Below, piece by piece: positions 38,511 to 54,700 of a stretch of DNA of 64,000 bases. The number at the start of each line of letters is the position of its first letter. The first letter of the stretch is position 1. Made by a program: the position numbers and the translations under genes. The stretch lies in contig NZ_JRLB01000101.1 in assembly GCF_000764495.1 (NCBI RefSeq), positions 1-64,000 on the forward strand. The letters run 5' to 3'. The DNA comes from Nitrincola sp. A-D6 (GTDB taxonomy: Bacteria > Pseudomonadota > Gammaproteobacteria > Pseudomonadales > Balneatricaceae). The notes under the pieces were generated by a model, which was not told where the DNA came from, made no database searches, and was given only the letters and a program-made list of their open reading frames with translations.

Positions 38511-38552
38511 TTGCATCAGATGCCGATATTAATAATAATGATAACTAATATC
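38511..38552 (+). promoter_or_regulatory. fecI promoter with Fur box
   Basis: TTGCAT (38511-38516), 17-base spacer, AATAAT (38534-38539). A Fur-box-like 19-mer covers 38534-38552 and matches the consensus GATAATGATAATCATTATC at 15 of 19 positions. It ends 30 bases before the sigma-factor start, so iron-dependent repression is expected. Confidence 0.75.
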
Positions 38553-38582
38553 ATTTAAGAAGGCCTATCGGAGCAATTGTTC

Positions 38583-39095
38583 ATGACGGCTATTAGTACA
38601 CAGCATGCGCAAGAAGTAGAGCAGCTGTATCTTGAAAACCGCACCTGGCTGTCCATCTTTATCCAGCGACGTCTTGGATGTCCGGATGACACGGCTGACC
38701 TCATACATGATACCTATATGCGTATTCTGACTTGTGGCTATCTACCTCAGAAACATGAGTCCAAACGCTTTTTAACCCATATCGCCAAAGGCTTGTTGGT
38801 CGATACGTATCGTCGTAAACAGGTTGAAAAAGCCTATGAGCAGTATCTGTTACAGCTGCCGGAGAGCTATGCACCATCGGCTGAAGAGCATGTGCTGATG
38901 ATAGAGTCACTTGTCAGTATCGATGCGCTGCTGCACAGCTTACCTGATAAAATGCGTGAGGCATTGTTGCTAAGACAGTTAGATAATCTCAGCTATAAAG
39001 ACATTGCAAAACGCTTGAATGTCTCGGTTTCATCTGTGGAAAAATATGTTGCCAAAGCACTTCAGGCCTGCATGGCGGATATCATTCAGGATTAA
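38583..39095 (+). CDS. FecI-family ECF sigma factor
   Basis: A 170-residue extracytoplasmic-function sigma factor. Region 2 has FIQRRLGCPDDTADLIHDTYMRIL, and region 4 has LPDKMREALLLRQLDNLSYKDIAKRLNVSVSSVEKYVAKAL. The ATG at 38583 has GGAG 8-10 bases upstream. It would be held by the FecR-like protein encoded at the far end of the haem locus, about 9 kb away, and released when the TonB receptor binds haem or hemophore. The candidate promoter motif is shared by hemO and the receptor gene. Its end overlaps the convergent DUF454 gene by 14 bases. Confidence 0.9.
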   Translation: MTAISTQHAQEVEQLYLENRTWLSIFIQRRLGCPDDTADLIHDTYMRILTCGYLPQKHESKRFLTHIAKGLLVDTYRRKQVEKAYEQYLLQLPESYAPSAEEHVLMIESLVSIDALLHSLPDKMREALLLRQLDNLSYKDIAKRLNVSVSSVEKYVAKALQACMADIIQD

Positions 39096-39489
39096 TGACT
39101 TTCGTTTTAATTTTCATTGGGCAGGTTTTTGGCATTTCAGGTCGGCTAGCTAACCAAATCATCACCAACGCCATGAGGGTCGGTGCCGCACATTTAACCC
39201 ATAAGGGTGCACTACTGGAAAACAGCAAAAATGTGCTGAGTAGCATACTCAGAGCAGCTATCCACTTGGCCCGACGAGGGATAGCCCGATGTGTTTGCCA
39301 TTGGCTGATCAGAGGGCCAAATCGTGGATGCGCTAATAGCCAGGCGTGTAATCTTGGCCAGGCATTGGCTGAAGCCCAAACGGCTAATAGCACGAATATT
39401 GTGGTTGGAAAGCCGGGCAAGATGACACCGATAAAGGCCAATGCGATAAAAAACAATGCCAACAGGCGCCATAATGCTATTTTTAGCAT
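39082..39489 (-). CDS. DUF454/YbaN-like inner-membrane protein
   Basis: A 135-residue membrane protein with about four helices. LLALFFIALAFIGVILPGFP with TTIFVLLAVWASANAWPRLHAWLLAHPRFGPLI is the DUF454 (YbaN) signature. In many bacteria such genes sit beside haem-uptake genes. The ATG shares one base with the haem oxygenase stop (TAATG), so it is translationally coupled to it. Function unknown; a role in haem handling is suggested by context only. Confidence 0.85.
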   Translation of the reverse strand: MLKIALWRLLALFFIALAFIGVILPGFPTTIFVLLAVWASANAWPRLHAWLLAHPRFGPLISQWQTHRAIPRRAKWIAALSMLLSTFLLFSSSAPLWVKCAAPTLMALVMIWLASRPEMPKTCPMKIKTKVINPE

Positions 39490-40124
39490 TAGCCAGCCAC
39501 TTCTTTTATGTTAATAGACATAATTTGATCGACTGACTTAGTAACAAAATGGAAAGCCTGTTTGGCCGCATCCAGCGCTTGCTTTTTTTGCGGGTCAGTC
39601 AGCATTAAATTATCAAGTAATGCCCTGAACTCACGCCAGTGCGCAGCCCGGCCATCAGCGTGAGCAGTCATATGTCTGGCACCAAAGGTCTCAGAAAAGC
39701 CCAGTGAATTTTTAACATGCTTGAGTAGAATAGCGGCACCCAAGTTCGATCCTTCGATAGTGTATAACCAACCCAGGCCAGCATAGACACCGTTAATACT
39801 CACCTCTTGTCCTTTTTTATGATCAATTTGTAGCAGATCAGTTGATATATTTAAATCCTTACAGTCCTGCAGAACAGCGTTCAGTCTGCTGCGTTGATGT
39901 GCTCCAGAGATAAGATTGTTTATCTGTTTGTCTTGGTAAACAGCTTCACTTGCTGAGTGCAGCCGCAGTTGCATACGTAAAAAACCTTGATAACTGGCAG
40001 TATCGGCAAATGGGTTAAGCTGCATAATGCTGTGATCCAGTTGATCATGTATTGCCTTGGTCCCTTCTTTCAGATACATCGAGAGCGCTTCAGATTCAGT
40101 TGTTTGGGTCATCATCATATCCAT
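39489..40124 (-). CDS. hemO: Haem oxygenase
   Basis: Degrades haem to biliverdin, CO and iron in the cytoplasm. The 211-residue product carries the proximal His in KEGTKAIHDQLD near residue 27 and the distal-helix motif GLGWLYTIEGSNLGAAILLK near residue 117. This matches the HemO/PigA/HmuO-type bacterial oxygenases. A run of ATG codons follows the first Met, so the exact start may be a few codons later. Upstream is the TTTACGGA-N15-CGGTATA motif shared with the receptor gene. Cotranscribed with the DUF454 gene. Confidence 0.93.
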   Translation of the reverse strand: MDMMMTQTTESEALSMYLKEGTKAIHDQLDHSIMQLNPFADTASYQGFLRMQLRLHSASEAVYQDKQINNLISGAHQRSRLNAVLQDCKDLNISTDLLQIDHKKGQEVSINGVYAGLGWLYTIEGSNLGAAILLKHVKNSLGFSETFGARHMTAHADGRAAHWREFRALLDNLMLTDPQKKQALDAAKQAFHFVTKSVDQIMSINIKEVAG

Positions 40125-40149
40125 TAAATTATAGGGTGAAGATACCCTG

Positions 40150-40179
40150 TATACCGAATGAAATGATGATTTCCGTAAA
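40150..40179 (-). promoter_or_regulatory. Candidate ECF-sigma promoter of haem oxygenase
   Basis: On the minus strand TTTACGGA (40172-40179), 15 bases, CGGTATA (40150-40156), ending 25 bases before the hemO ATG. The same pair of boxes with the same spacing is found upstream of the TonB receptor gene. Interpreted as the -35 and -10 of the FecI-type sigma factor. Confidence 0.65.
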
Positions 40180-40208
40180 AAATACTTCAGAATTATATTT
40201 ATTTTGTT

Positions 40209-41534
40209 TTATTTCGTTTTATTTTTTACTGTTGTAGCCCGATTGCTATAAGGCCTTGCCTTGCCGGGTTTTCCCCAGGCAGTATAAAGGGCCGTAAGAT
40301 TATCCAATGCCACCAACAGGCTGTCCTCATTCGCGGATGGGGTACTGTCCAGCAACGCCAAGGCTTTCAGAAACAGTGGCTCAGCTTGCGCATAGTGCCG
40401 CTGATTGTAATACAGTGTTGCCGTATAGCTGGCTATTTGTGATGCTTCCAGCGGACGCAGATTCAACTGATCATGCAGCAACAGGCTTTGCTCAAATAAG
40501 GCCAAGGCCGCGGCATTATCTTTCTGTGACAATTTCAGACTGGCCAGGTTACCCAGAATCAGTGCCTGCTCAATGGATTCACTTTTATTCAACTCAGACA
40601 GTAGCTCAAGTGCCTGTTGGTACAGACTGTCGGCTTGTTGGTAGTTGGTATTCAACTGATGGCGCAGTGCCAGTTCATTGAGATGCATAACACTGGCCAG
40701 GCTCGGTTCGCTGTATTGCTGGCGCAACAATAAGGCCTGTTCACGTATGGGGGTGGATTGGGTTTGTTGATTCGCATCATCATAGGCATTCGCCAGGTGT
40801 TCCAACACACTCAGCAGGCGTTCATTATCTGGCTGCGAGCTCTGCTGTAAGGCTTGACTGGCCTGTTCCAAGGCATTAATGGCTTGTTGCGGTTGCTGCT
40901 GCGCCGTGTGTGCCTGTGCCAGCAGTAATAGTAAATCCGCCGTGTCCGATGCGGAGCTGGGCTGAGGATGATAGTGCTCCGTCTCTGCAAAGCCTACTAA
41001 GGCATTGTTGATTAGATTTCCTGCCTCGGCATATTGATGTTCTTCCATTAGCATCTGCGCTTGTGCCAATACAGCCTGCCACAACTTGCCCTCGCCAGTA
41101 TTCATTAGCGTGAGGTAACGCTCAATCGACTGCTGATAAACCTGCCTGGCCTGCTCAAAGCGGTTGGCCTGTTGCAATAGCTGCCCCTGGTTGAATAGTA
41201 ACTGACCCAACTGCTCCTGATGTTCGCCAGACGCCTGATTACTCAGTTGCACGGCCTCGGAGATCGCCTCCAAAGCCTGATCAATTTGCCCTTGTGCAGC
41301 ATAAATATAGGCGAGCATATTTAAACTACTGGCTTGGTAGCATCGCCATTATCAGCCTTTTCAGACACACGTATGGCTTGTTGTATCGCCTGTTGCGCCT
41401 GTTGATAGTCTCCGTGTTGATAGGCCTGAGTTGCCTGAGACTGCCAAGGCTTGCCAGTCTGTTGTACTGGCATGCGACTGCAGGCTTAAAAATAATAAGC
41501 TCAGGATCAATAAACTAAGATGACGTTGTCGCAT
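40209..41534 (-). CDS. Secreted tetratricopeptide-repeat protein, two frameshifts in this sequence
   Basis: Signal peptide MRQRHLSLLILSLLFLSLQS-HAS, then helical repeats of TPR type to the end (AYQHGDYQQAQQAIQQAI, AAQGQIDQALEAISEAV, QADSLYQQALELLSEL, AQAEPLFLKALALLDS). The frame shifts twice: near 41444-41449 (one extra base) and near 41330-41335 (one missing). Repaired length is 441 residues. It lies between Slam and haem oxygenase, 27 bases after the Slam stop. Probably periplasmic. It may chaperone the hemophore or assist Slam; that is inferred from position. Confidence 0.75.
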
Positions 41535-41560
41535 AAAACTCTCACTTTTAGATCTAGTAT

Positions 41561-43068
41561 TCAAAAACGTTTTTCCAGTTTCAAGCTGACACTGTTGCGG
41601 TCATAGGAGTACAGCCAGTCTATATTGCTATTTACTTTGCGGTGCTTGAAGGTCAGGTTGGGTTCCAAGCCATATACAGCAAGGCCAGGAAAACGCAGGA
41701 TAGCGGTATAATTTTGTTCCACATCGTTTCGCTGCTCAGCAAATACCGCACTGAATGCATCATGTTCGCGCTCACGTACAGATGCAAAAAACACCGCATT
41801 GACGTGCTGATTAAAGGTCTTGGCAACTCCGGCTCTGAGGCCGATTTGTTCATAGGCATTTTGCTCTACTTCCGCCTGTTTACGAGTCCAGTCCAGGCCG
41901 CCAAACAGGGTCCAGTTGTTTGGTAGCGCGTACCAGGCGGTAGCATAGACTGATCCGGTATAACCATCATACTGAGATGCAAGGTTGTCTTTGCTGTATG
42001 CCTGATCTTTGTAGTCTGTTTCCAGCTTGAACATCACTTTGTCGGTCAGATAATGCAGCCATTCCCCATGCAGCCCCCAGGCGGTATAGAGGGACTCGTT
42101 ACCATAACGTGAATATTCGAAGGAGGGTGCCAGTGACAACTGGTTGCGCAGCGTATGGTAACTGTAGCCGAACTGGGCGTTAAGTTGGCTTTCGTTGTAG
42201 GCTGAATGGTTTTTATAGCTTTGGCCGAAGAGTAATGAACGAAAATACAAGCCGTGATGCCCAGAAAGAGCAATGCGTTTGTTTAAAGTCATTTCATACT
42301 CGAGGCCTTCGGATCTGATAGCATCTGGCGTTTTACGTTCAAACAGGCATATGGAACTGTAATACATTAGGCAGGTATAGCTTTCCGATGATTGGTTAAG
42401 ATTGTCTGACCAATTTGGGCCCAGGGATAGGGAACCTTGCCAGGATTGGCGTTTATCCACAGCTTGCAAAAAACTATCAATAGTTTTGAGTACACCTTGC
42501 TGGCGCTCATCGTCCGGGTTGAGGGTTTGAGCAATTTGCTGGAACATCCGCTTGGCTTCAGCATCTTTACGGTTTTCAAACAGCACCCGCGCCAGTTCCA
42601 ACTGACCCAGCAAGAAGTCAGGATTAATCACCAATAGGATAGAAAACTCGGTTTCGGCCTGTCTCATATCCCCCGTAATCTGGCGAGTGAGCCTTGGGCA
42701 TAGGCAATCAGCATGGGATCTGCTGCAGGAAACGTCCGATATTCTTCTAAAAAATATACCACGGCGGGCCACTGTTTTTGTTGAATCGATAAATACAAGG
42801 CACGGCCTACATCATTCACATCATGTTTGATGGTGTAGGTTTTACCGTCGAGAGTGAGTGTTGGGCGTTCACCCCTTAGGTAATCTTCATCCTCAAGGAT
42901 TTGTCGTTCCTGCTGGAGTGACTGCAGATCAATACTTTGATTCAGGCGTAAAGAGGTATCCTGATTATCCGCCCAACTCTTCTGACCGATTGACAGGCTG
43001 ATAAAAAATACAGCCACAATCGCCATTTTTCGTGACGAAACAAACAATAGATGTGATTCAGGTAACAT
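41561..43068 (-). CDS. Slam-type outer-membrane translocon, frameshifted in this sequence
   Basis: Surface lipoprotein assembly modulator family (DUF560). After a signal peptide (about residues 1-33) there is an N-terminal TPR domain (AYAQGSLAR, then AETEFSILLVINPDFLLGQL and LARVLFENRKDAEAKRMF). The beta-barrel follows from about residue 200 (GSLSLGPNWSDNLNQSS) and ends in KLEKRF with terminal Phe. The frame breaks at a run of five C (42671-42675) where six are needed; repair gives 502 residues. Slam proteins move surface lipoproteins or hemophores across the outer membrane. The adjacent hemophore gene is the likely client. Confidence 0.87.
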
Positions 43069-43095
43069 AATCTGGCTTCGGTAGAGAAAGGGAAA

Positions 43096-43121
43096 GCAAG
43101 CGTCTGAAAACAGACGCTTGC
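43096..43121 (-). terminator. Hairpin between hemophore and Slam genes
   Basis: Perfect 11-bp stem GCAAGCGTCTG/CAGACGCTTGC with a 4-base loop, followed on the minus strand by TTTCCCTTTC. It probably ends most hemophore transcripts, so Slam would be made at lower level than its client. Confidence 0.75.
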
Positions 43122-43167
43122 TTGTTAAAACACTGTTTAATCAACTTCCATGTAGTTCAGGCAGTGC

Positions 43168-43997
43168 TTACTGTGCTTGACCACCAAAAGCGGTGTTGTA
43201 GTCTGATCCTGCACCGAAGTTCGCTATACCCGCTAGCGCATCCTGGTTGTTGAAAAAATGACCATTAACAGTACCTCCGGTAGCCACATCAACACCACTA
43301 ACAGAGAAAACTGCTCCATTTCCTGAGACAGCTGCGGTGTTTAGCCCAATGTCCGCTGTCCCGATATCTAATTTGATGTTAGATGTAGTATTTTGTACAT
43401 AGCCCGTGAGTTCCAAGGTACCGAAATCAGCAGTAAAGGTGCCTTGCATAACACCATTTTCTGTATATTTATTAATACCAGTAACGTTGTAATCGACTAC
43501 AGAACCCAATAGGTTGTTTGTGGTTACGTTGCTGTCTGCGTCATCACCATGGTAGTAGACTTGGCGACCATTGTAGGTAGTGCCATCGACTACAGTCTCT
43601 CCATTTTCTGACCATTCACCAAACCAGACATCACCATCACCCGCTTGTGCAAAGCTGAATATGCCGAGCTCATCGTGAGTTTCTGGTGCCTCAGTAATTG
43701 GAAAATCCAGATGGTAGATTGGCCCCGTCAGGCCGTCAGTTAGCCCTTCAAAATCGACTTTTGCTGAGGTTCCCAGTAACGGGAAGTTGGAAATACCAAT
43801 GCCAGCATTGTTCCAGGAGTGAGGTCCAAAAGGAACATTTGATACACCGACCTGTATATATTCATAGCCACTCACCGCGGCGCTCTGAGTGCCCGCCCAA
43901 GGGGCTGCCTGAACCTGGCTCCAGCCATGAACAGGGTGCTGCCCAGTGCGATACCGACTGTCAGTTTTCCTTTGTTGAACAGATGTTGCATTTTCAT
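43168..43997 (-). CDS. HphA-like Slam-dependent secreted hemophore, frameshifted in this sequence
   Basis: Signal peptide MKMQHLFNKGKLTVGIALG, then, after one missing base near 43919-43927, WSQVQAAPWAGTQSAAVSG. Repaired length is 276 residues. There is no lipobox, so a soluble product is expected. The body matches the hemophore HphA of Acinetobacter baumannii in pattern: DVWFGEWSENG, VDYNVTGINKYTENGVMQG, TFTADFGTLELTGYV and a C-terminal TbpB-like barrel ending DYNTAFGGQAQ. It would bind haem outside the cell and hand it to the TonB receptor. RBS AAGGAGC is six bases before the ATG at 43997. Confidence 0.85.
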
Positions 43998-44064
43998 GAT
44001 AAAGCTCCTTTCCAAGGTTAATTCAGATGGTCAGCAATTATTTATGGCCACCTGCTTATCAGAG

Positions 44065-47000
44065 CTATTGCTCTAATTCGTTAATTTTAAAATTCATGGT
44101 CAGGCTGAGCTTTAACACTCTGCCCGGCGCGGCCATCATTGAGCGGGTAATGGGGTCAACGTAATATTGATCGGTCAGGTTGGTACCTGTGAGCTCTATG
44201 TCGATGTTGTCGTTGACTTTGTAACTGGCATAGGCATCAACAATCATTAAGTTGTCCCAGGTAAAAGGCGAATTGAGGCCAAAATTACCGTAGTACTGGA
44301 CATAGTCTTCAAGGTATTGATTGCTGTGAGCTTTGTAATAGGTTAGTCGGGTGCCTAGTTCCAGCTTTCTGTCCATAAACCGACCTCCCAGAGACAGGTT
44401 GCCGGACAGTTCAGGAATGGCTTGTGTCAACAGATAGCCGCCGATAAAACCATCCTGTACGCACCTTGGGGTAGACAGGCTGGCTGTTCCTCCTGGGCCC
44501 GTCTGCTGGTTAGCAGCTTCTGCGCTGGCTTTATCGCACACCTCGTTTTCCAGGATATAGGACAGGCCCAGGTTGGTGAAAAAACGTCCGTTGTCATAAC
44601 GTGCCTGTATTTCGGCACCACGAATGGTCTGCTGTTCTATATTGCTAAAGCGCCACCAGCGATCACGTTCAATGACATTCTTTGTTTTGTGCTGGAAGTA
44701 GGCCAGCTTGAAATCGGCATATTCGGCATTTAACCAGGGAGTCAGATCCTGGATAAAGGCCAGTTCGTAGTTATAGGCATGTTCCGGCTCAATATCATAG
44801 TAGGGGCTTTGGTTGGAGGAAAAACCGATAGTGCTTTCAAACATACTGGGATAGCGTTTTGCTTCGCTGTAGCGGAAATAAATTCGGCTGGCATCTGTTA
44901 GTTGATAGGTGGTTGAGAAAAAGGGTGTCCAGGCGTGACTACGCTGCGTTTTGGCAGTGGTGTCAGCTTCATAGGTTAGCTCATCACGCAGAGCCGTAAC
45001 TTCGGCTGATTCTCCTCCAGATTGTGTCTCTTCCCATGCTATACAGTCGTCGACATTGGATAACTCGCCATTTTCGCAGGGATTATCTGCCCTAAAGTAG
45101 TTACCTTTGCCGTCGTGATACCAGGCTGAGGTATATACTTTGTCGTATGTTTCACCCACCTGAACTTGTTGGTTGGCCCCTTGTGTAGCACTTTGATGTG
45201 CTCTAGTTGCTATTTGCTCTTCGGTCCATATCCCGCCAACAAGCTCATTAAGAAGTTCTATATTGTTTGCATAACTGGTTTGGTAAATAGCATCCCAGTC
45301 GTCCTGGGTATAGACAGCCTCGCCCGTCCAAGAAACCACTCGCCCCTGGTATGCTGTGGCTGTTGTTGCCATATTGCCGGCTTTCTGCTGCTCGTCCAGA
45401 TAGTCGTCAAATGCCCAGTAGGATGAGTAGCGTGCGCCGGCTGTAAAGCTCAGTCGGTCAGTGGGTCGCCAGTCAAAGTTGAAGTTTGTTTCCCATTCTT
45501 GTCGACTGCCAGCCCGAGGAAGGCTCCAGCTGCCGTTCCAACTATCCGGGTTATACTCCAGCCCTTCGGAGCGCAGTTTTTCGTATTGCCAATTGCCACC
45601 CAGGGTGAGATCAAGAGAGTCCAGCAACGTCATTTTGTTGCTGAGGGTGATGCCGGTGCGTTCATTATCTTGACTACGCAGGGCGGTATTGAAGATATAT
45701 GGATCGTCAGGACCAAAAGCAAAGTTTGGTGAACCACCGGCGGTGTAGGTATCACTGCCAGTATCGGTATGCCATAGGTTGGAGTAGAAATCGATCCAGC
45801 GGTTGCTTTCAGGATTCAGTGTATATTCCATGCTGTAAGCTTTGGCATCAACGTGGCTGAGTGGCCACTGAATTGTGCCTGAACACTGGCATAACCCGAA
45901 CTGCGGATGCGGGAGGGCATAACTTCACCATAGAGGGTATCGGTATCACGAGCCGTAAAGGTGAGCTGCTGCTCATCGTTGAATTTCCATGTCAGTTTAC
46001 CTAGCCAGGACTCCATGGTGCTGGAGGTATTCATCACTTCCGTTCCGGGTGGGAACCCTATTGCTAAACCACGCAGCGGATTGAGTTCAGCCAGTGTTGT
46101 TCCGCTTGAGTTATGGGGAGTTGAGTAGAAACCGGCATTGTTTTCACCGGAATAATGGTTGCCCTTTTCCCGATAGGCATAGGCCAGCATGGCGTCAAAA
46201 TTTTCATGCCGTTTGCCAAAAGCCAGACGGTAGGCATAGTCCTCGCCGGAAAATGGGTTGTAATCGCGGCTGGTTTTCGGTTCGACACGCAGTGTCGGAT
46301 CACCCAGGGAACCAATTGCGCCCGGTGAGAATCCTGAAATATCCCGATAGTCCATGCCAGTAGACAAGCCTGGCACGCGCGGACTTACCGAGCCACTACT
46401 GCCTTCTATCTTCAGTTCCGCACCAAAGTCTTCGCCTGGTTTGACAATATCATCAACACCAATGGTCTTTGCGACTATGGCACCACCCACACCACTGTAG
46501 ACATTGCGCTCAAGATTCGGTCCCTTGATAATCTGAATGCTGCCAAGCAAATTCGGATCAATATAATTGCGGTTGGTAGCCCCGTTGTAGCCACGCCATA
46601 CCGTGATGGCTTGTTCAGTACCATCGATGGTCAACGGCACCCGTCCGGGACCTTGAATCCCACGGATGTTCGGATCTATCGCACCACTGTTACGCGCATC
46701 GCCACTGAAAACCCCAGCAATACCATTCAGCAAGTCGGCCGGGTTGGCACCTTTATAGCGTTCAATCTCTGTTTTGCCGATATAGCTGGTTGAGATATCC
46801 CGATCAAATACTTCGTTGTATCCCTGCTCATCTCGCGTGAAAGTAAAACCGCTTCCATACACATTGAGGGCATCCAGCTGTACCGAGTCTGCGAGGCTGC
46901 TTTCCTGCTGCACGGCTGTGGCTGAACCAATCCGGTAAGCACCATCGGCTTGTTGGATGGCGACAAGTCCTGTATCAGTTAATAGTTGGCGCAACCCTTC

Positions 47001-47255
47001 ATGCGCGGTGTATCGCCCCTGAAGCCCCTGGCTGGTTTGTCCTTGTAGTAATGCACCATTCAGATAAAGCTCCAGGCCCGCCTCTAATCCAAAACGATTC
47101 AGTACCTGGTCGAAGTCACCGGCCGGAATATTGAATTCACGAATATCGGATACCGTGGTTTGTGCTGCAAGTGGTAAGGCATAAAATGGGGTGATTCCTG
47201 CCAGAGACAGGCCGATCAAGATGACGTTCAGTCGTGAAAAGGGTTGCGACAACAT
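44065..47255 (-). CDS. TonB-dependent haem/hemophore receptor with STN domain, frameshifted in this sequence
   Basis: Signal peptide ending PLAAQ, then an STN signalling domain (about residues 35-110; FNIPAGDFDQVLNRFGLEAG), a plug (DLLNGIAGVFSGDAR; NPNIRGIQGPGRVPLTIDG) and a 22-strand barrel. The frame shifts near 45848; one missing base joins SATL to DAKAYSMEYTLNPES. Repaired length is about 1063 residues, at the large end of the family. The STN domain fits signalling to FecR/FecI in addition to transport. The carboxy end is atypical (NFKINELEQ rather than a terminal Phe). Hemophore HphA is encoded 67 bases downstream. Confidence 0.9.
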
Positions 47256-47291
47256 ATGGACTCCTGCTGTTTCTCATCAAGTTGTAATCTA

Positions 47292-47321
47292 TACACCGGA
47301 TGAGGAGCCTAAATCCGTAAA
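47292..47321 (-). promoter_or_regulatory. Candidate ECF-sigma promoter of the TonB receptor
   Basis: Minus-strand TTTACGGA (47314-47321), 15-base spacer, CGGTGTA (47292-47298), about 36 bases before the receptor start. The -35 octamer and spacing are identical to the motif before haem oxygenase, and 6 of 7 bases of the -10 box agree. Confidence 0.65.
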
Positions 47322-47439
47322 CAAAAACTAAATGATTTATATTCGTATCCTTTGTTTGTTAATAAGCCTGTGATAGAGGATGGAATCAACTATCAGTGTC
47401 AACCTGTATAGTGAAGAAGAAGCCTGAATCTGTAAGCTA

Positions 47440-47497
47440 GGAGCTGTCCGAGAATAGTGACCAAAACGGCTTTTCCGCATATTCTCGGACAGCCTCC
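47440..47497. mobile_element. MITE-like inverted-repeat element flanked by TA
   Basis: GGAGCTGTCCGAGAATA at 47440-47456 is mirrored by TATTCTCGGACAGCCTCC at 47480-47497, differing by one extra base. A TA dinucleotide stands on each side. The 58-bp size, terminal repeats and TA duplication resemble a non-autonomous relative of an IS630/Tc1-type element. It could also act as a transcriptional hairpin between the two genes. Confidence 0.5.
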
Positions 47498-47561
47498 TAA
47501 GTAGTCTTGATAAGACGCTAAGCAACTGACTATCTCAGTGCTTTTATCTCGGTTATAAAGA

Positions 47562-48517
47562 TTACGCCGGTAGCAGGGTGATCCAGTAGGGGGTAAAGGC
47601 TTGCAGTCTGACCGGAAGAATTTCTGTTAATTGCTGGAGTATGCGTTCTGTGTCTTGCAGCGAAAATATGCCGGTTACCCTGAGCGATGATACGTCCGGG
47701 CTCACGCGTAGCTTGCCGGTATGATAACGTGATAACTCCTCGGCAAACTCTAGCAATGGCATGTTGGCCACCGCCAGTTTTCGCCTGGTCCATGCCATAT
47801 TAGCAGCCTCTACAGCCTGGCGTTTGATCAGCCGAAAACGGGTGAAATCAGCACCCAGTCCGGATTCTATGATGCTGATGTCATCAGACTCGGCGGGTTG
47901 AATTTCTACCCGGCCTTCGTAAACGGCTAATCGAGCTTGTTTGTCCATAAGTCTTACTGAAAAGCGCGTACCCAGTGGACGTAGACTACCCTCTCGTGAA
48001 ACTACGGATAGGGGGAGTTGGTGGGGCGCCGTTTCGATATAGACTTCGCCCTCATACAGGCGTATTTCGCGTTTTCGCGGGGTAAAGTTTATATCGATCC
48101 GAGTTGCTGTGTTAATAAACAGATGGGTACCGTCAGCCAGGATTATGTCCTGTATTTCACCCTTATTGGTGGCATAGTCAGTTGAGTTGAAAAGGTTGGT
48201 ACGGAAGTGTTCTGTGGCCAGTAGCCCAGCGCCAGCGGTAACACTCGCATAGGTTAAAAACTGGCGGCGAGAAATGGATTTTGTCTGTCTTAATAATTTG
48301 CTGCCAACTTCGGGGTCGGGTACGACACGAAAACGCTGTTGTAACTTTTGTACCTGTTGCCAGGCCTGTTCATTTTCAGGTGCTGACTGACGCCAGGATA
48401 AACAGGCAGCATGATCTTGTTCTGTGACATCATCCGCCATAGTCGTGCCAGCCAGTTACAGGCCTGATTGATGGATTCCTTTGATGTTGCCGGCCGATCC
48501 AGTGTGTTGCGCCGCAT
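47562..48517 (-). CDS. FecR-family anti-sigma regulator, frameshifted in this sequence
   Basis: The cytoplasmic N-terminal part INQACNWLARLW is followed, after one missing G near 48440, by ADDVTEQDHAACLSWRQSAP, the classic FecR opening. A single membrane segment lies at about residues 88-105 (RQFLTYASVTAGAGLLA). The periplasmic part has GTHLFINTATRIDINFTPRK, LYEGEVYIETA and GTRFSVR, and the C-terminal STN-like tail interacts with receptor STN domains. Repaired length is 318 residues. It would transmit haem sensing from the receptor to the FecI-type sigma factor, which is encoded 9 kb away. Confidence 0.88.
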
Positions 48518-50800: not shown

Positions 50801-53800
50801 ATGCTCGTTCTGCGTGGAGCACCCGCTCTCTCGGCTTTCCGTCGTGATAAGTTATTATCACTCCTTCAGACTCAAACCGATTCAGTAACCGGTCTGTATG
50901 CTGAGTTCATTCATTTTGCCGATACACCGGCTCCGCTGAAGGGCGAGGAGCAAGGCGTGCTCGACCGGATTCTGAGCTATGGCCCCACAGGGATGGCTGA
51001 AAATCCTGAGGGCGAGCTGTTTCTGGTTATTCCCCGACCTGGAACAATTTCGCCCTGGTCCAGCAAGGCTACAGATATCGCACAAAACTGTGGTCTAACG
51101 CAAATAAATCGGTTGGAGCGTGGGTTAGCCTACTATATTCACAGCCGGACTGCACTGAGTGATGCTGAGCGCAGCTTCATTCAGGCCCAACTGCATGATC
51201 GTATGACGCAGTCGGTGGTTGATACGCTGGAGGCGGCTGCCAGCTTGTTTAGGCATGAAGCACCTCGTCCGCTTGCTCTGGTTGATGTGTTAACAGAGGG
51301 GCGGGCAGCCCTTGAATCTGCTAACACGACCTTAGGGCTGGCGCTGGCAGAGGATGAAATCGATTATCTGCTGCAAAGCTTTACCGATCTGCAACGTAAT
51401 CCCACCGATGTAGAGCTGATGATGTTTGCGCAGGCTAATTCTGAGCACTGCCGCCACAAAATATTCAATGCCAGTTGGGATATTGATGGTGAAACACAGG
51501 ATAAGTCCCTGTTTGCGATGATCCGTAACACCAATGAGCTGGGTGGTGAGAATGTCCTTTCGGCTTATAAAGACAATGCTGCAGTTATAAGCGGTTCGGT
51601 TGCCGGGCGGTTTTACCCAGACCCAGATTCTGCGGCATACGGCTTTCATCAGGAACCCATTCATATCCTGATGAAAGTTGAAACACACAACCACCCGACG
51701 GCTATAGCGCCGCATCCAGGTGCGGCAACCGGGTCGGGTGGTGAAATTCGTGACGAAGGTGCCACAGGTAAGGGCGCCAAGCCGAAAGCCGGTTTGAACG
51801 GGTTTACCGTATCAGATTTGAATATCCCTGGTTTTGAACAGCCTGGGAATCGGATTACGGTAAGCCGGAACGCATCGTGACCGCATTGGATATTATGCTG
51901 GAAGGTCCTATAGGGGCGGCGGCGTTTAATAATGAATTCGGTCGGCCAAATCTCACCGGCTATTTCCGTACCTTCGAACAGCAAGTGCCTGGTGCGGCGG
52001 GTGATGAAGTGCGCGGCTATCACAAGCCGATCATGATTGCCGGTGGCTTGGGAAATATTCGTGAAGATCACGTTGATAAGGGCGAGATTCCGGTAGGGGC
52101 CAAACTGATCTGTCTGGGTGGTCCGGCGATGCTGATCGGTCTGGGTGGTGGCGCCGCTTCTTCAATGACATCGGGTAGCTCGGCGGCTGATCTGGATTTC
52201 GCTTCAGTACAGCGCGAAAACCCTGAACTGGAACGCCGTTGTCAGGAGGTGATCGATCGCTGCTGGCAGTTAGCGGATCGGAACCCCATCGCGTTTATCC
52301 ACGATGTTGGCGCGGGTGGTTTATCCAATGCTTTCCCTGAGCTGGTTAAAGATGGCGGTTGCGGCGGGCATTTTGAACTGCGTAATATCAATAATGATGA
52401 ACCCGGTCTGTCACCACTGGAGATCTGGTGTAATGAAGCCCAGGAACGTTATGTGCTGGCGGTCAGCCGCAGGATATGCCACGTTTTGAAGCCATTTGTG
52501 AACGTGAGCGCTGCCCTTACGCGGTGGTGGGTGAGGCGACTGATGCGCATCACCTGACCTTAAATGACACCCATTTTGAAGCTAAACCGGTTGATTTGCC
52601 AATGTCAGTGTTATTTGGCAAACCACCGAAAATGCATCGCAGTGTTACACGCATTAACTATGACCTGCCAGAGTTTGATGCTAGCAATATTGATCTGGAA
52701 GACGCGGTTGAGCGAGTGCTTAAACTGCCGGCGGTAGCTTCCAAATCCTTCCTGATCACCATTGGTGACCGGACCATTACCGGGCTGGTTGCACGTGATC
52801 AGATGGTCGGTCCCTGGCAGGTGCCGGTGGCTGACTGTGCTGTGACAGCGGCCTCCTTTGATACCTATGCTGGCGAAGCCATGGCTATGGGGGAGCGGAC
52901 TCCCCTGGCATTAATTGACTCTCCGGCCTCAGGGCGTATTGCCGTTGGTGAAACCCTGACCAATCTGGCGGCGGCACGGATTGCTGATATCGCTGATGTT
53001 AAGCTCTCAGCCAACTGGATGTGTGCCGCGGGCCATCCTGGAGAAGATGAAAAGCTCTATGACACGGTCAAAGCCGTGGGCATGGAGTTGTGTCCTGAGC
53101 TGGGTATTACCATTCCTGTCGGCAAGGACTCCATGTCGATGCGTACGGTATGGAGCGAGGAGGGTCAGGCTAAAAGTGTCACCGCGCCTATGTCGTTAGT
53201 CGTGTCGGGCTTTGCACCGGTGGTAGATATACGCAAAACGCTGACACCGCAGCTACTCACAGATCAGGGTGAAACCGATCTGCTGTTGATAGATCTGGGT
53301 GCTGGCCAGAATCGACTCGGCTTATCAGCCTGGCGCAGGTCTATAATCAGGTCGGACAGCAGGCTCCTGATCTGGATGATGCGGGGTTAATGCGTGCATT
53401 CTTTGCTGCAATTCAAGAACTCAACGCCCAGGGTAGGCTGCTGTCCTATCATGACCGCTCTGATGGTGGTTTATTTGTTACCCTGGCAGAAATGGCCTTT
53501 GCCGGCCACTGTGGTATCGATATTAATCTGGATATGCTCGCGGCGGGCCAGGATGAGATTGCAGCGGCCCTGTTTGCAGAAGAGTTGGGCGCTGTGATTC
53601 AGGTGCGCCGCGAACACACGGCTGAAGTGTTAACGGAGCTGAATGCGGCAGGTCTCGGTGATCTGGTCAGTGTGATTGGTACGATCAATGAGGATGACTC
53701 GGTTAACCTCTACTTTGATGAAGAAGAGATCTTCAGTGAAAGTCGCTCGTTATTGCAAAGCTATTGGGCGGAAACCTCTTATCAGTTACAGTCGATGCGT

Positions 53801-54700
53801 GATAATCCTGAGTGCGCGCAGCAGGAGTTTGAGCAGATTCAGGATCGCAATGATCCGGGCCTGCATGTGGCACTGAGTTATGCTGTAAACGAAGATGTAG
53901 CGGCGCCCTATATCGCCTCAGGAATGCGGCCACAGGTGGCTGTTTTGCGCGAGCAGGGAGTGAACGGTCAGGTTGAAATGGCCGCGGCCTTTGATCGCGC
54001 CGGATTCACCGCTGTGGATGTGCATATGAGCGATATTCTGTCTGGGCGTGTTTCGCTGGACGTTTTCCAGGGTTTGGTGGCCTGTGGTGGCTTCTCGTAC
54101 GGTGATGTATTGGGTGCCGGTGAAGGTTGGGCGAAATCAGTATTGTTTAATAGTCGCGCTCGCGATGAATTTGCCGCTTTCTTTGCCCGTCAGAGCAGTT
54201 TTGCATTGGGTGTGTGTAATGGCTGTCAGATGATGTCTAATCTGCATGAGTTGATTCCCGGTGCCGAGCGTTGGCCGCACTTTGTGCGTAATAGTTCTGA
54301 GCAGTTTGAAGCACGTCAGGCGATGGTAGAAGTTCAGCAGACGCCTTCAATCTTCCTGCAGGGGATGGCCGGATCACGCATGCCTATTGCGATTGCACAT
54401 GGTGAAGGGCGCGCTGAGTTCAGTGATGCTGATCATCTGCAACGTTTGCAGCAATCCTCGGATATCGCGCTGCGCTATGTGGATAACTATGGCAAGGTAA
54501 CGGAACGTTATCCCGCTAATCCCAATGGCTCACCAGCCGGGATTGCGGGTATTACAACGCCGGATGGTCGCGTAACGATTATGATGCCACATCCGGAGCG
54601 CATGTTTCGTGCTGTACAGCATTCATGGAGTCCGGAAGACTGGTCTGAGGATGGTAGTTGGATGCGTATGTTCAGAAATGCGCGTGCCTGGCTGAAGTAA
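50801..54700 (+). CDS. purL: Phosphoribosylformylglycinamidine synthase, three frameshifts in this sequence
   Basis: Large ATP-dependent amidotransferase of purine synthesis, single-chain type. Recognisable in order are the PurS-like N-terminus ([16 protein letters not shown]), [27 protein letters not shown] and [20 protein letters not shown]. Further on are GGGAASSM, the FGKPPKMHR region, GKDSMSMRT and the C-terminal amidotransferase domain with [12 protein letters not shown] (Cys) and MPHPERMFR. Breaks near 51862, 52465-52476 and 53330 each need one added base. Repaired length is 1300 residues, the normal size. The amidotransferase triad is intact. Confidence 0.93.

Follow-up and report, generated by a model that had tools for sequence, protein, structure and literature searches.

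A hemophilin-Slam haem-acquisition locus of Nitrincola sp. A-D6 and the probable replacement of its receptor barrel and hemophore as a pair in a congener

The locus described here lies between positions 38,583 and 48,517 of a 64-kb stretch of DNA from Nitrincola sp. A-D6 (contig NZ_JRLB01000101.1, positions 1 to 64,000; the whole of this analysed stretch is referred to as the window). It comprises eight genes predicted to serve the acquisition of haem through a hemophore, HphA, with its translocator Slam, an outer membrane receptor, HphR, and a FecI-FecR signalling pair. Reading of both strands from 38.5 to 48.5 kb and a Pfam scan returned the same gene content, order and coordinates as an earlier note made from the sequence of the window. 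The genes, together with the segment that differs as a unit from the corresponding site of a congener designated G010, are listed below.

38583..39095, forward strand: fecI-type extracytoplasmic function (ECF) sigma factor gene; Sigma70_r4_2 at 3.9e-17, sigma regions 2 and 4; uninterrupted.
39082..39489, reverse strand: gene for a DUF454 membrane protein; PF04304 at 7.9e-33; uninterrupted.
39489..40124, reverse strand: hemO, haem oxygenase gene; PF01126 at 1.1e-22; intact.
40209..41534, reverse strand: gene for a tetratricopeptide repeat (TPR) protein; TPR_12 at 2.6e-36, with a Sec-type leader judged by eye; two frame breaks.
41561..43068, reverse strand: slam, translocator gene of the DUF560/type XI secretion system (T11SS) family; PF04575 at 1.5e-52 and TPR_Slam at 6.1e-10; one frame break near 42,670.
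43168..43997, reverse strand: hphA, hemophore gene; HphA_N at 1.1e-31 and HphA_C at 2.3e-24; one frame break in the signal-peptide region.
44065..47255, reverse strand: hphR, gene for a TonB receptor with STN, plug and barrel domains; STN at 1.3e-6, plug at 2.3e-14 and barrel at 8.1e-29; one frame break near 45,830.
47562..48517, reverse strand: fecR, anti-sigma gene; FecR at 6e-18 (65.5 bits) and DUF4880 at 6.5e-9; one frame break near 48,440.
43100..46535, reverse strand: segment differing from G010 as a unit, consisting of the HphR barrel (from about residue 240) and hphA; defined by DNA and protein identity profiles, trees and tests of topology.

That the block is an HphA-Slam locus equipped with surface signalling and a haem oxygenase was borne out by Pfam, Protein Data Bank (PDB) and promoter evidence. 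PF04575 gave a single match in the entire genome, that of the window slam. An STN receptor, a FecR anti-sigma factor and a FecI ECF sigma factor are encoded together, the combination that marks FecI-FecR-FecA signalling. The STN domain of hphR is barely over threshold (28.5 bits, the cut-off being 28.4), the hphR pieces match the haem receptor model TIGR01785 at 1e-36 and 7e-28, each under the curated cut-off, and FecI matches NCBIfam FecI models at 1e-46, yet under their cut-offs. The block was also said to cover uptake, which stands for the outer membrane; for the inner membrane, neither a haem transporter nor TonB was present among the open reading frames (ORFs) of the block that were scanned. 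A second FecI-FecR-receptor set occurs in the same genome (L017, contig C2, 9,079-13,044), its FecI and FecR sharing 36% and 26% identity with their window counterparts.

Matches to solved hemophilins settle the predicted fold of the window HphA. The best match in the PDB was 8gmm (2.2e-28 with a single sequence, 3.1e-60 with a profile); HphA of Acinetobacter baumannii (7re4) matched at 1e-17 and 7.4e-42 respectively, and the profile matches of PDB hemophilins spanned 3.1e-60 to 8.9e-33. In the A. baumannii protein, according to the published account, the haem iron is bound by axial H43 and H106 (PMC8560813). These residues, 63 apart in 7re4 as in that account, align with two conserved histidine columns of the window HphA, the loop of the first axial histidine being gapped in the alignment of 7re4 with the window protein. 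Both columns were filled by histidine in 66 of 79 HphA rows and the remaining 13 were gapped at the first; as the rows are segments matched by BLAST, part of these gaps are cut ends. A secreted, non-lipidated cargo would have a signal peptide lacking a lipobox. The window HphA leader carries the frame break, and the leaders of Methylophaga lonarensis and G010 are without cysteine as judged by eye. A tree made only of Slams from HphA loci placed the window Slam among them.

G010 carries the locus at the same site, adjoining tadA, and most of its products are closely similar to those of the window: FecI 92%, SlamC 91%, SlamN 88%, DUF454 86%, TPR protein 84% (over the longest window piece), TadA 89% and MltF 92% identical, and FecR 80% over the C-terminal 291 aa. 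Identity is low for the HphR barrel (49%) and HphA (47%). At the DNA level, identity to G010 drops at approximately 46.55 kb and recovers just before slam. When HphR was compared in 20-residue steps, identity was 70-95% to residue 240 and 15-70% thereafter (to 460), the plug ending at residue 247. The Slam tree pairs the window with G010 (Shimodaira-Hasegawa-like approximate likelihood ratio support 99.9); in the HphA and barrel trees the window joins M. lonarensis and Marinobacter oulmenensis. Approximately unbiased (AU) tests against a window-G010 pair gave p values of 1.9e-5 for HphA, 4.2e-29 for the barrel and 0.007 for the N part. These trees were built on a chosen subset of 27 of 79 to 80 rows (26 for the N part), and a careful barrel tree of 21 rows also rejected the window-G010 pair (p 1.9e-5). 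By these comparisons the HphR barrel and HphA of G010 are foreign relative to the window, and the STN domain, plug, Slam and accessory genes are shared. Nitrincola lacisaponensis 4CA (G001) is more distant from the window in the flanking genes (TadA 80%, MltF 80%) but has a barrel that shares 82% identity with that of the window. Because the flanks of N. lacisaponensis diverge more than those of G010 and its barrel nevertheless resembles that of the window, the replacement most likely occurred on the G010 side. The sequences suggest that barrel and HphA form an exchangeable, matched recognition pair, and that Slam and the signalling components may tolerate different pairs.

A receptor without its hemophore is found in N. 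lacisaponensis, which has fecI, DUF454, the TPR gene, hphR and fecR at tadA. Between hphR and the TPR gene there is neither hphA nor slam, and some 14 bp around the slam stop codon are left beside the TPR gene (by eye). The hphR gene is intact, with a ratio of nonsynonymous to synonymous substitution rates (dN/dS) to the window of 0.065-0.086 (0.086 for the barrel). Among 390 genomes of the order, matches to HphR (E up to 1e-150) were obtained in eight; leaving out the window genome itself, six of seven had an adjacent HphA and N. lacisaponensis alone was without, although no more than two candidates were scored in each genome and cases may be missed. Whether the orphan receptor uses a foreign hemophore or is an ordinary receptor for free haem is, on the evidence, evenly balanced. 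A published working model has HphR acting by itself in haem piracy (PMC8560813), and the relaxation of constraint on the orphan barrel was not significant (p=0.17), both of which are consistent with a free-haem receptor. In the other direction, N. lacisaponensis has a further HphA-Slam locus of its own on contig C36 (its hemO lies elsewhere in the genome), and the retention of a window-type receptor alongside it suggests, weakly, another ligand. The suggestion that the TPR protein is a Slam partner was weakened in this genome, where the TPR gene stays beside the receptor in the absence of slam, though it follows slam directly in all 13 of the 77 loci described below that have it.

Three sequence elements are candidates for the regulation of the block.

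40150..40178, reverse strand: candidate FecI-type promoter before hemO; TTACGGA-N11-CNTTCGGTATA with 0 mismatches.
47292..47320, reverse strand: candidate FecI-type promoter before hphR-hphA-slam-TPR; the same motif with 2 mismatches.
38525..38553, forward strand: Fur-box-like element before fecI; 15/19 positions agree with the Fur consensus.

Allowing up to two mismatches, TTACGGA-N11-CNTTCGGTATA was found twice in the window assembly, twice in G010 and four times in N. lacisaponensis, against 0, 0 and 1 matches for a control in which the motif pattern was reversed. The sites stand before hphR or hemO/DUF454 in both cases in the window assembly, both in G010 and three of four in N. lacisaponensis. 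In the last of these, the sites preceding hphR and DUF454 are exact, a third, with 2 mismatches, is located about 120 bp ahead of where Pfam matches a hemO on another contig, and the fourth, also with 2 mismatches, is without known target. The hphR-side motif has 0 mismatches in G010, N. lacisaponensis and M. lonarensis, the motif being exact at both places in M. lonarensis. The hemO gene is absent from the site in both G010 and N. lacisaponensis, where the second motif is kept and precedes DUF454 instead; G010 retains a sequence resembling the hemO leader (by eye). FecI is predicted to use the motif, the GGAAAT-like core of which resembles the -35 element of E. coli FecI. The Fur-like box alone is near chance, with three window matches at 14/19 or better compared with one to two in three mononucleotide shuffles. 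At the box, however, approximately 29 bp are the same in three congeners, and a Fur-like site particular to M. lonarensis occupies this place in that species.

A working model can be proposed from these parts. Under low iron, Fur would leave fecI. HphA would be secreted through Slam, take haem by its two histidines and pass it to HphR, which when occupied by haem would signal through the STN domain to FecR and FecI. FecI would then fire two promoters, for hphR-hphA-slam-TPR and for hemO-DUF454, and HemO would free iron from the haem.

Several observations count against this model or against the exchange of barrel and hemophore. No match to a haem oxygenase was found anywhere in the G010 genome (two contigs), and therefore HemO is not needed for the locus to persist. 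Among 11 loci scanned, no clear motif was present before hphR in L013, L030, L034 and L045, and L031, L033 and L044 carried just 3-mismatch forms. The AU tests were picked after the identities had been seen, and no donor for the G010 cassette came to light. The HphA of G010 branches immediately beside the clade of the window, M. lonarensis and M. oulmenensis (support 97), so that HphA by itself would also fit an older split and the barrel carries the case. Among 172 pairs of loci with Slam identity of at least 80%, which are not independent, a joint drop of 20 points or more in HphA and barrel occurred in just two, namely window-G010 and the Vibrio penaeicida pair described below. Mirror-tree correlations (r 0.86 for HphA-barrel, 0.79 for HphA-Slam) were not decisive, and Marinomonas sp. 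TW1 has a different border, a Slam similar to that of the window adjoining a Marinomonas receptor. Two Vibrio penaeicida records (L090 and L092) repeat the pattern seen between the window and G010, with FecI 100%, FecR 95%, Slam 96%, the N half 87%, the barrel 60% and HphA 74% identical; within the set of loci compared, however, each of the two HphAs has the other as its closest relative, and import is therefore unsupported for that pair. In both V. penaeicida loci, two genes with lipoprotein-like leaders (by eye) were observed between hphR and hphA, inside the divergent segment (L090 6800-9617; L092 6838-9756).

These V. penaeicida HphAs are also compatible with fast point-by-point evolution of barrel and HphA, as in an arms race with phages, bacteriocins or competitors, in place of import by recombination. 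Barrel and HphA outpace Slam in several close pairs, for example L039/L043 (Slam 90%, HphA 76%, barrel 71%). As an account of the difference between the window and G010 such evolution is nonetheless improbable: the window barrel groups with those of N. lacisaponensis, M. lonarensis and M. oulmenensis with the G010 barrel outside, the AU tests reject the pair, and the step in identity is abrupt both at the plug end and before slam.

The locus had been described as complete. In this assembly, however, fecR, hphR, hphA and slam each contain one frame change and the TPR gene two, and a complete and intact locus was accordingly rejected, since five of the eight genes are frame-broken as sequenced and only fecI, hemO and DUF454 are uninterrupted. 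All five broken genes are intact in G010 (L012), where the TPR protein is 439 aa and Slam 502 aa. Frame changes also affect other genes of the contig. The purL gene (window 50,801-54,700) has three, its four pieces being 95-97% identical to G010 at the amino acid level. When ORFs of G010 (at least 120 aa, at 55% identity and 60% coverage) were compared with the window contig, 27 ORFs spanning 27.8 kb gave seven frame changes, of which purL accounted for three. At these thresholds hphA and hphR dropped out and the fecR and TPR breaks went uncounted; the 27 also include an ORF antisense to DUF454 and another that repeats the purL end, and one of the counted changes (L130 18727) falls in an ORF of doubtful status. 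The slam pieces on either side of the break gave dN/dS values to G010 of 0.10 and 0.16, compared with 0.10 for tadA and 0.04 for mltF. Because of the three changes in purL at 95-97% identity and the low dN/dS of slam, the frame breaks are probably assembly indels in genes that are intact in the organism. Since frame changes divide purL and further conserved genes, claims at the level of single genes require care with this assembly.

Two counts sit less comfortably with assembly error. The density of breaks, counted by hand, is higher in the locus (6 in 9.2 kb) than elsewhere (6 in 22.9 kb), though not significantly so (p=0.098), and among 75 named loci hphR is split in three (L029, L046, L086) and slam in one (L046, both halves found). 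L029 is M. lonarensis, and L046/L010, with both hphR and slam split, is the Osedax symbiont Rs1; a fourth apparently split hphR, L094, was dismissed as two different genes. That the breaks are real and the system dead in this strain is unlikely: the six changes across five genes, the loss of hphA and slam at the same site in N. lacisaponensis, the absence of hemO from the site in two congeners and the split hphR of other loci, M. lonarensis included, would all be expected of decay, but purL and other genes of the contig are frame-changed despite 79-97% identity, slam holds its dN/dS on both sides of the break and the difference in density is not significant.

Taken together, the comparisons make it quite probable that the block, which is modular within the genus, serves haem acquisition by a hemophilin (HphA) and Slam under FecI-FecR signalling, with barrel and HphA as a putative matched pair. 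Its parts are known; what appears to be new is the replacement of the barrel-hemophore pair in one congener. More tentatively, and with the balance tilting somewhat against it, free-living bacteria may have hemophore types comparable to the pyoverdine types of pseudomonads. The HphR barrel and HphA would then constitute a lock-and-key cassette swapped at a fixed border, from the plug end to the start of slam, with Slam, the signalling domain and the sigma regulon staying in place, and some strains would drop hphA and slam, keep the receptor and live on the hemophores of their neighbours. The three congeners amount to a natural experiment on hemophore-receptor specificity at one chromosomal site, where two share the Slam and signalling end but differ in the hemophore-barrel pair and the third has the receptor without the hemophore. 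They make it possible to ask whether Slam chooses its cargo and HphR its hemophore by type, and whether non-producers use foreign hemophores. A candidate two-promoter motif for a FecI-type sigma factor is in addition provided, to be sought in other HphA loci.

HphA was found in three of 11 genomes of the genus. In seven other congeners, those whose contig reached the site, guaA and tadA are adjacent (G004, G005, G006, G008) or separated by 2.1-2.3 kb (G002, G003) or 6.8 kb (G007); guaA was tested for G005 and identified by eye in the rest, and tadA of G006 was not listed as an ORF. As the interval in the window is 20 kb (28,281-48,699), the locus sits in a variable stretch. One further element was noted in the spacer between fecR and hphR.

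47436..47502, reverse strand: 67-bp palindromic insert resembling a miniature inverted-repeat transposable element; partial copies on three other contigs (C39, C55, C101).

This insert is not in the fecR-hphR spacer of G010 or N. lacisaponensis. No tRNA was found in the 64-kb window. The host had been called a likely diazotroph, with which a single nifH over the cut-off agrees (467.7 bits, contig C116:28981-29805, not the window contig), in an assembly of 7% estimated contamination.

A scan yielded 77 distinct HphA loci in Methylophaga, Marinobacter, Marinomonas, Marinobacterium, Xanthomonas, Stenotrophomonas, Vibrio, Alcanivorax, Acinetobacter and others. L040, L049, L064, L067, L068 and others, which miss genes at contig ends, were kept in the 77, so that the counts of the TPR gene (at least 13), hemO (at least 22) and DUF454 (at least 19) are lower bounds. 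The full set of eight families was present in four of the 77 (L029, L030, L031, L033), with FecI and FecR of L030 just 25-26% identical. In every one of the 13 loci with a TPR gene, it directly follows slam.

The gene table of the A. baumannii hemO cluster lists an ECF-sigma factor, an anti-sigma factor, hphR, hphA, hsmA (Slam), a TonB-related protein, haem oxygenase and a hypothetical protein (PMC10483418). Given this sigma/anti-sigma/HphR set and the 77 loci across many genera, neither the host range nor the dedicated signalling receptor is new, contrary to what had been suggested. The TPR protein, likewise put forward as an addition, is a real gene that is absent from the cluster descriptions available to us, but it recurs in 13 of the 77 loci. 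The window resembles the A. baumannii cluster in its core gene set, HphA fold, both axial histidines, sigma/anti-sigma pair and haem oxygenase, and its HphA is 35% identical to the match in A. baumannii record L079. It differs in the position of fecI, which lies on the opposite strand at the block's far end, in the gene after slam, which encodes a TPR protein here and is the TonB-related gene in the published table, and in the two FecI-type promoter motifs defined here.

M. lonarensis (L029) is closer, with ten protein pieces 62-79% identical, the same order from fecR to DUF454 and both motifs; its fecI, however, is some 2.3 kb beyond DUF454 and its hphR has one frame change. As M. lonarensis belongs to another bacterial order, the locus has probably moved between lineages. 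Compared with the T11SS/Slam hemophilin family of Proteobacteria, no qualitative difference in parts was apparent: PF04575 stands beside a two-domain cargo with a C-terminal barrel, with haem oxygenase and DUF454 as neighbours, these occurring in 137 and 118, respectively, of 1,111 cluster-1 T11SS cases (PMC12282271). A precedent in social evolution is the has system of Pseudomonas aeruginosa, discussed as a public good, conditionally cooperative or private (PMC6298776).

In the open-licence PubMed Central literature, no paper was found on a hemophilin cassette swap, joint exchange of barrel and cargo or hemophilin piracy, nor one treating hemophilin, Slam and Stenotrophomonas maltophilia jointly. 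The hpuAB and hmbR genes of Neisseria are variable haem receptor systems for which recombination and diversifying selection are mentioned. They belong to host pathogens, whereas the window type has a secreted hemophore, occurs in free-living bacteria and has its Slam and signalling end outside the putative swap.

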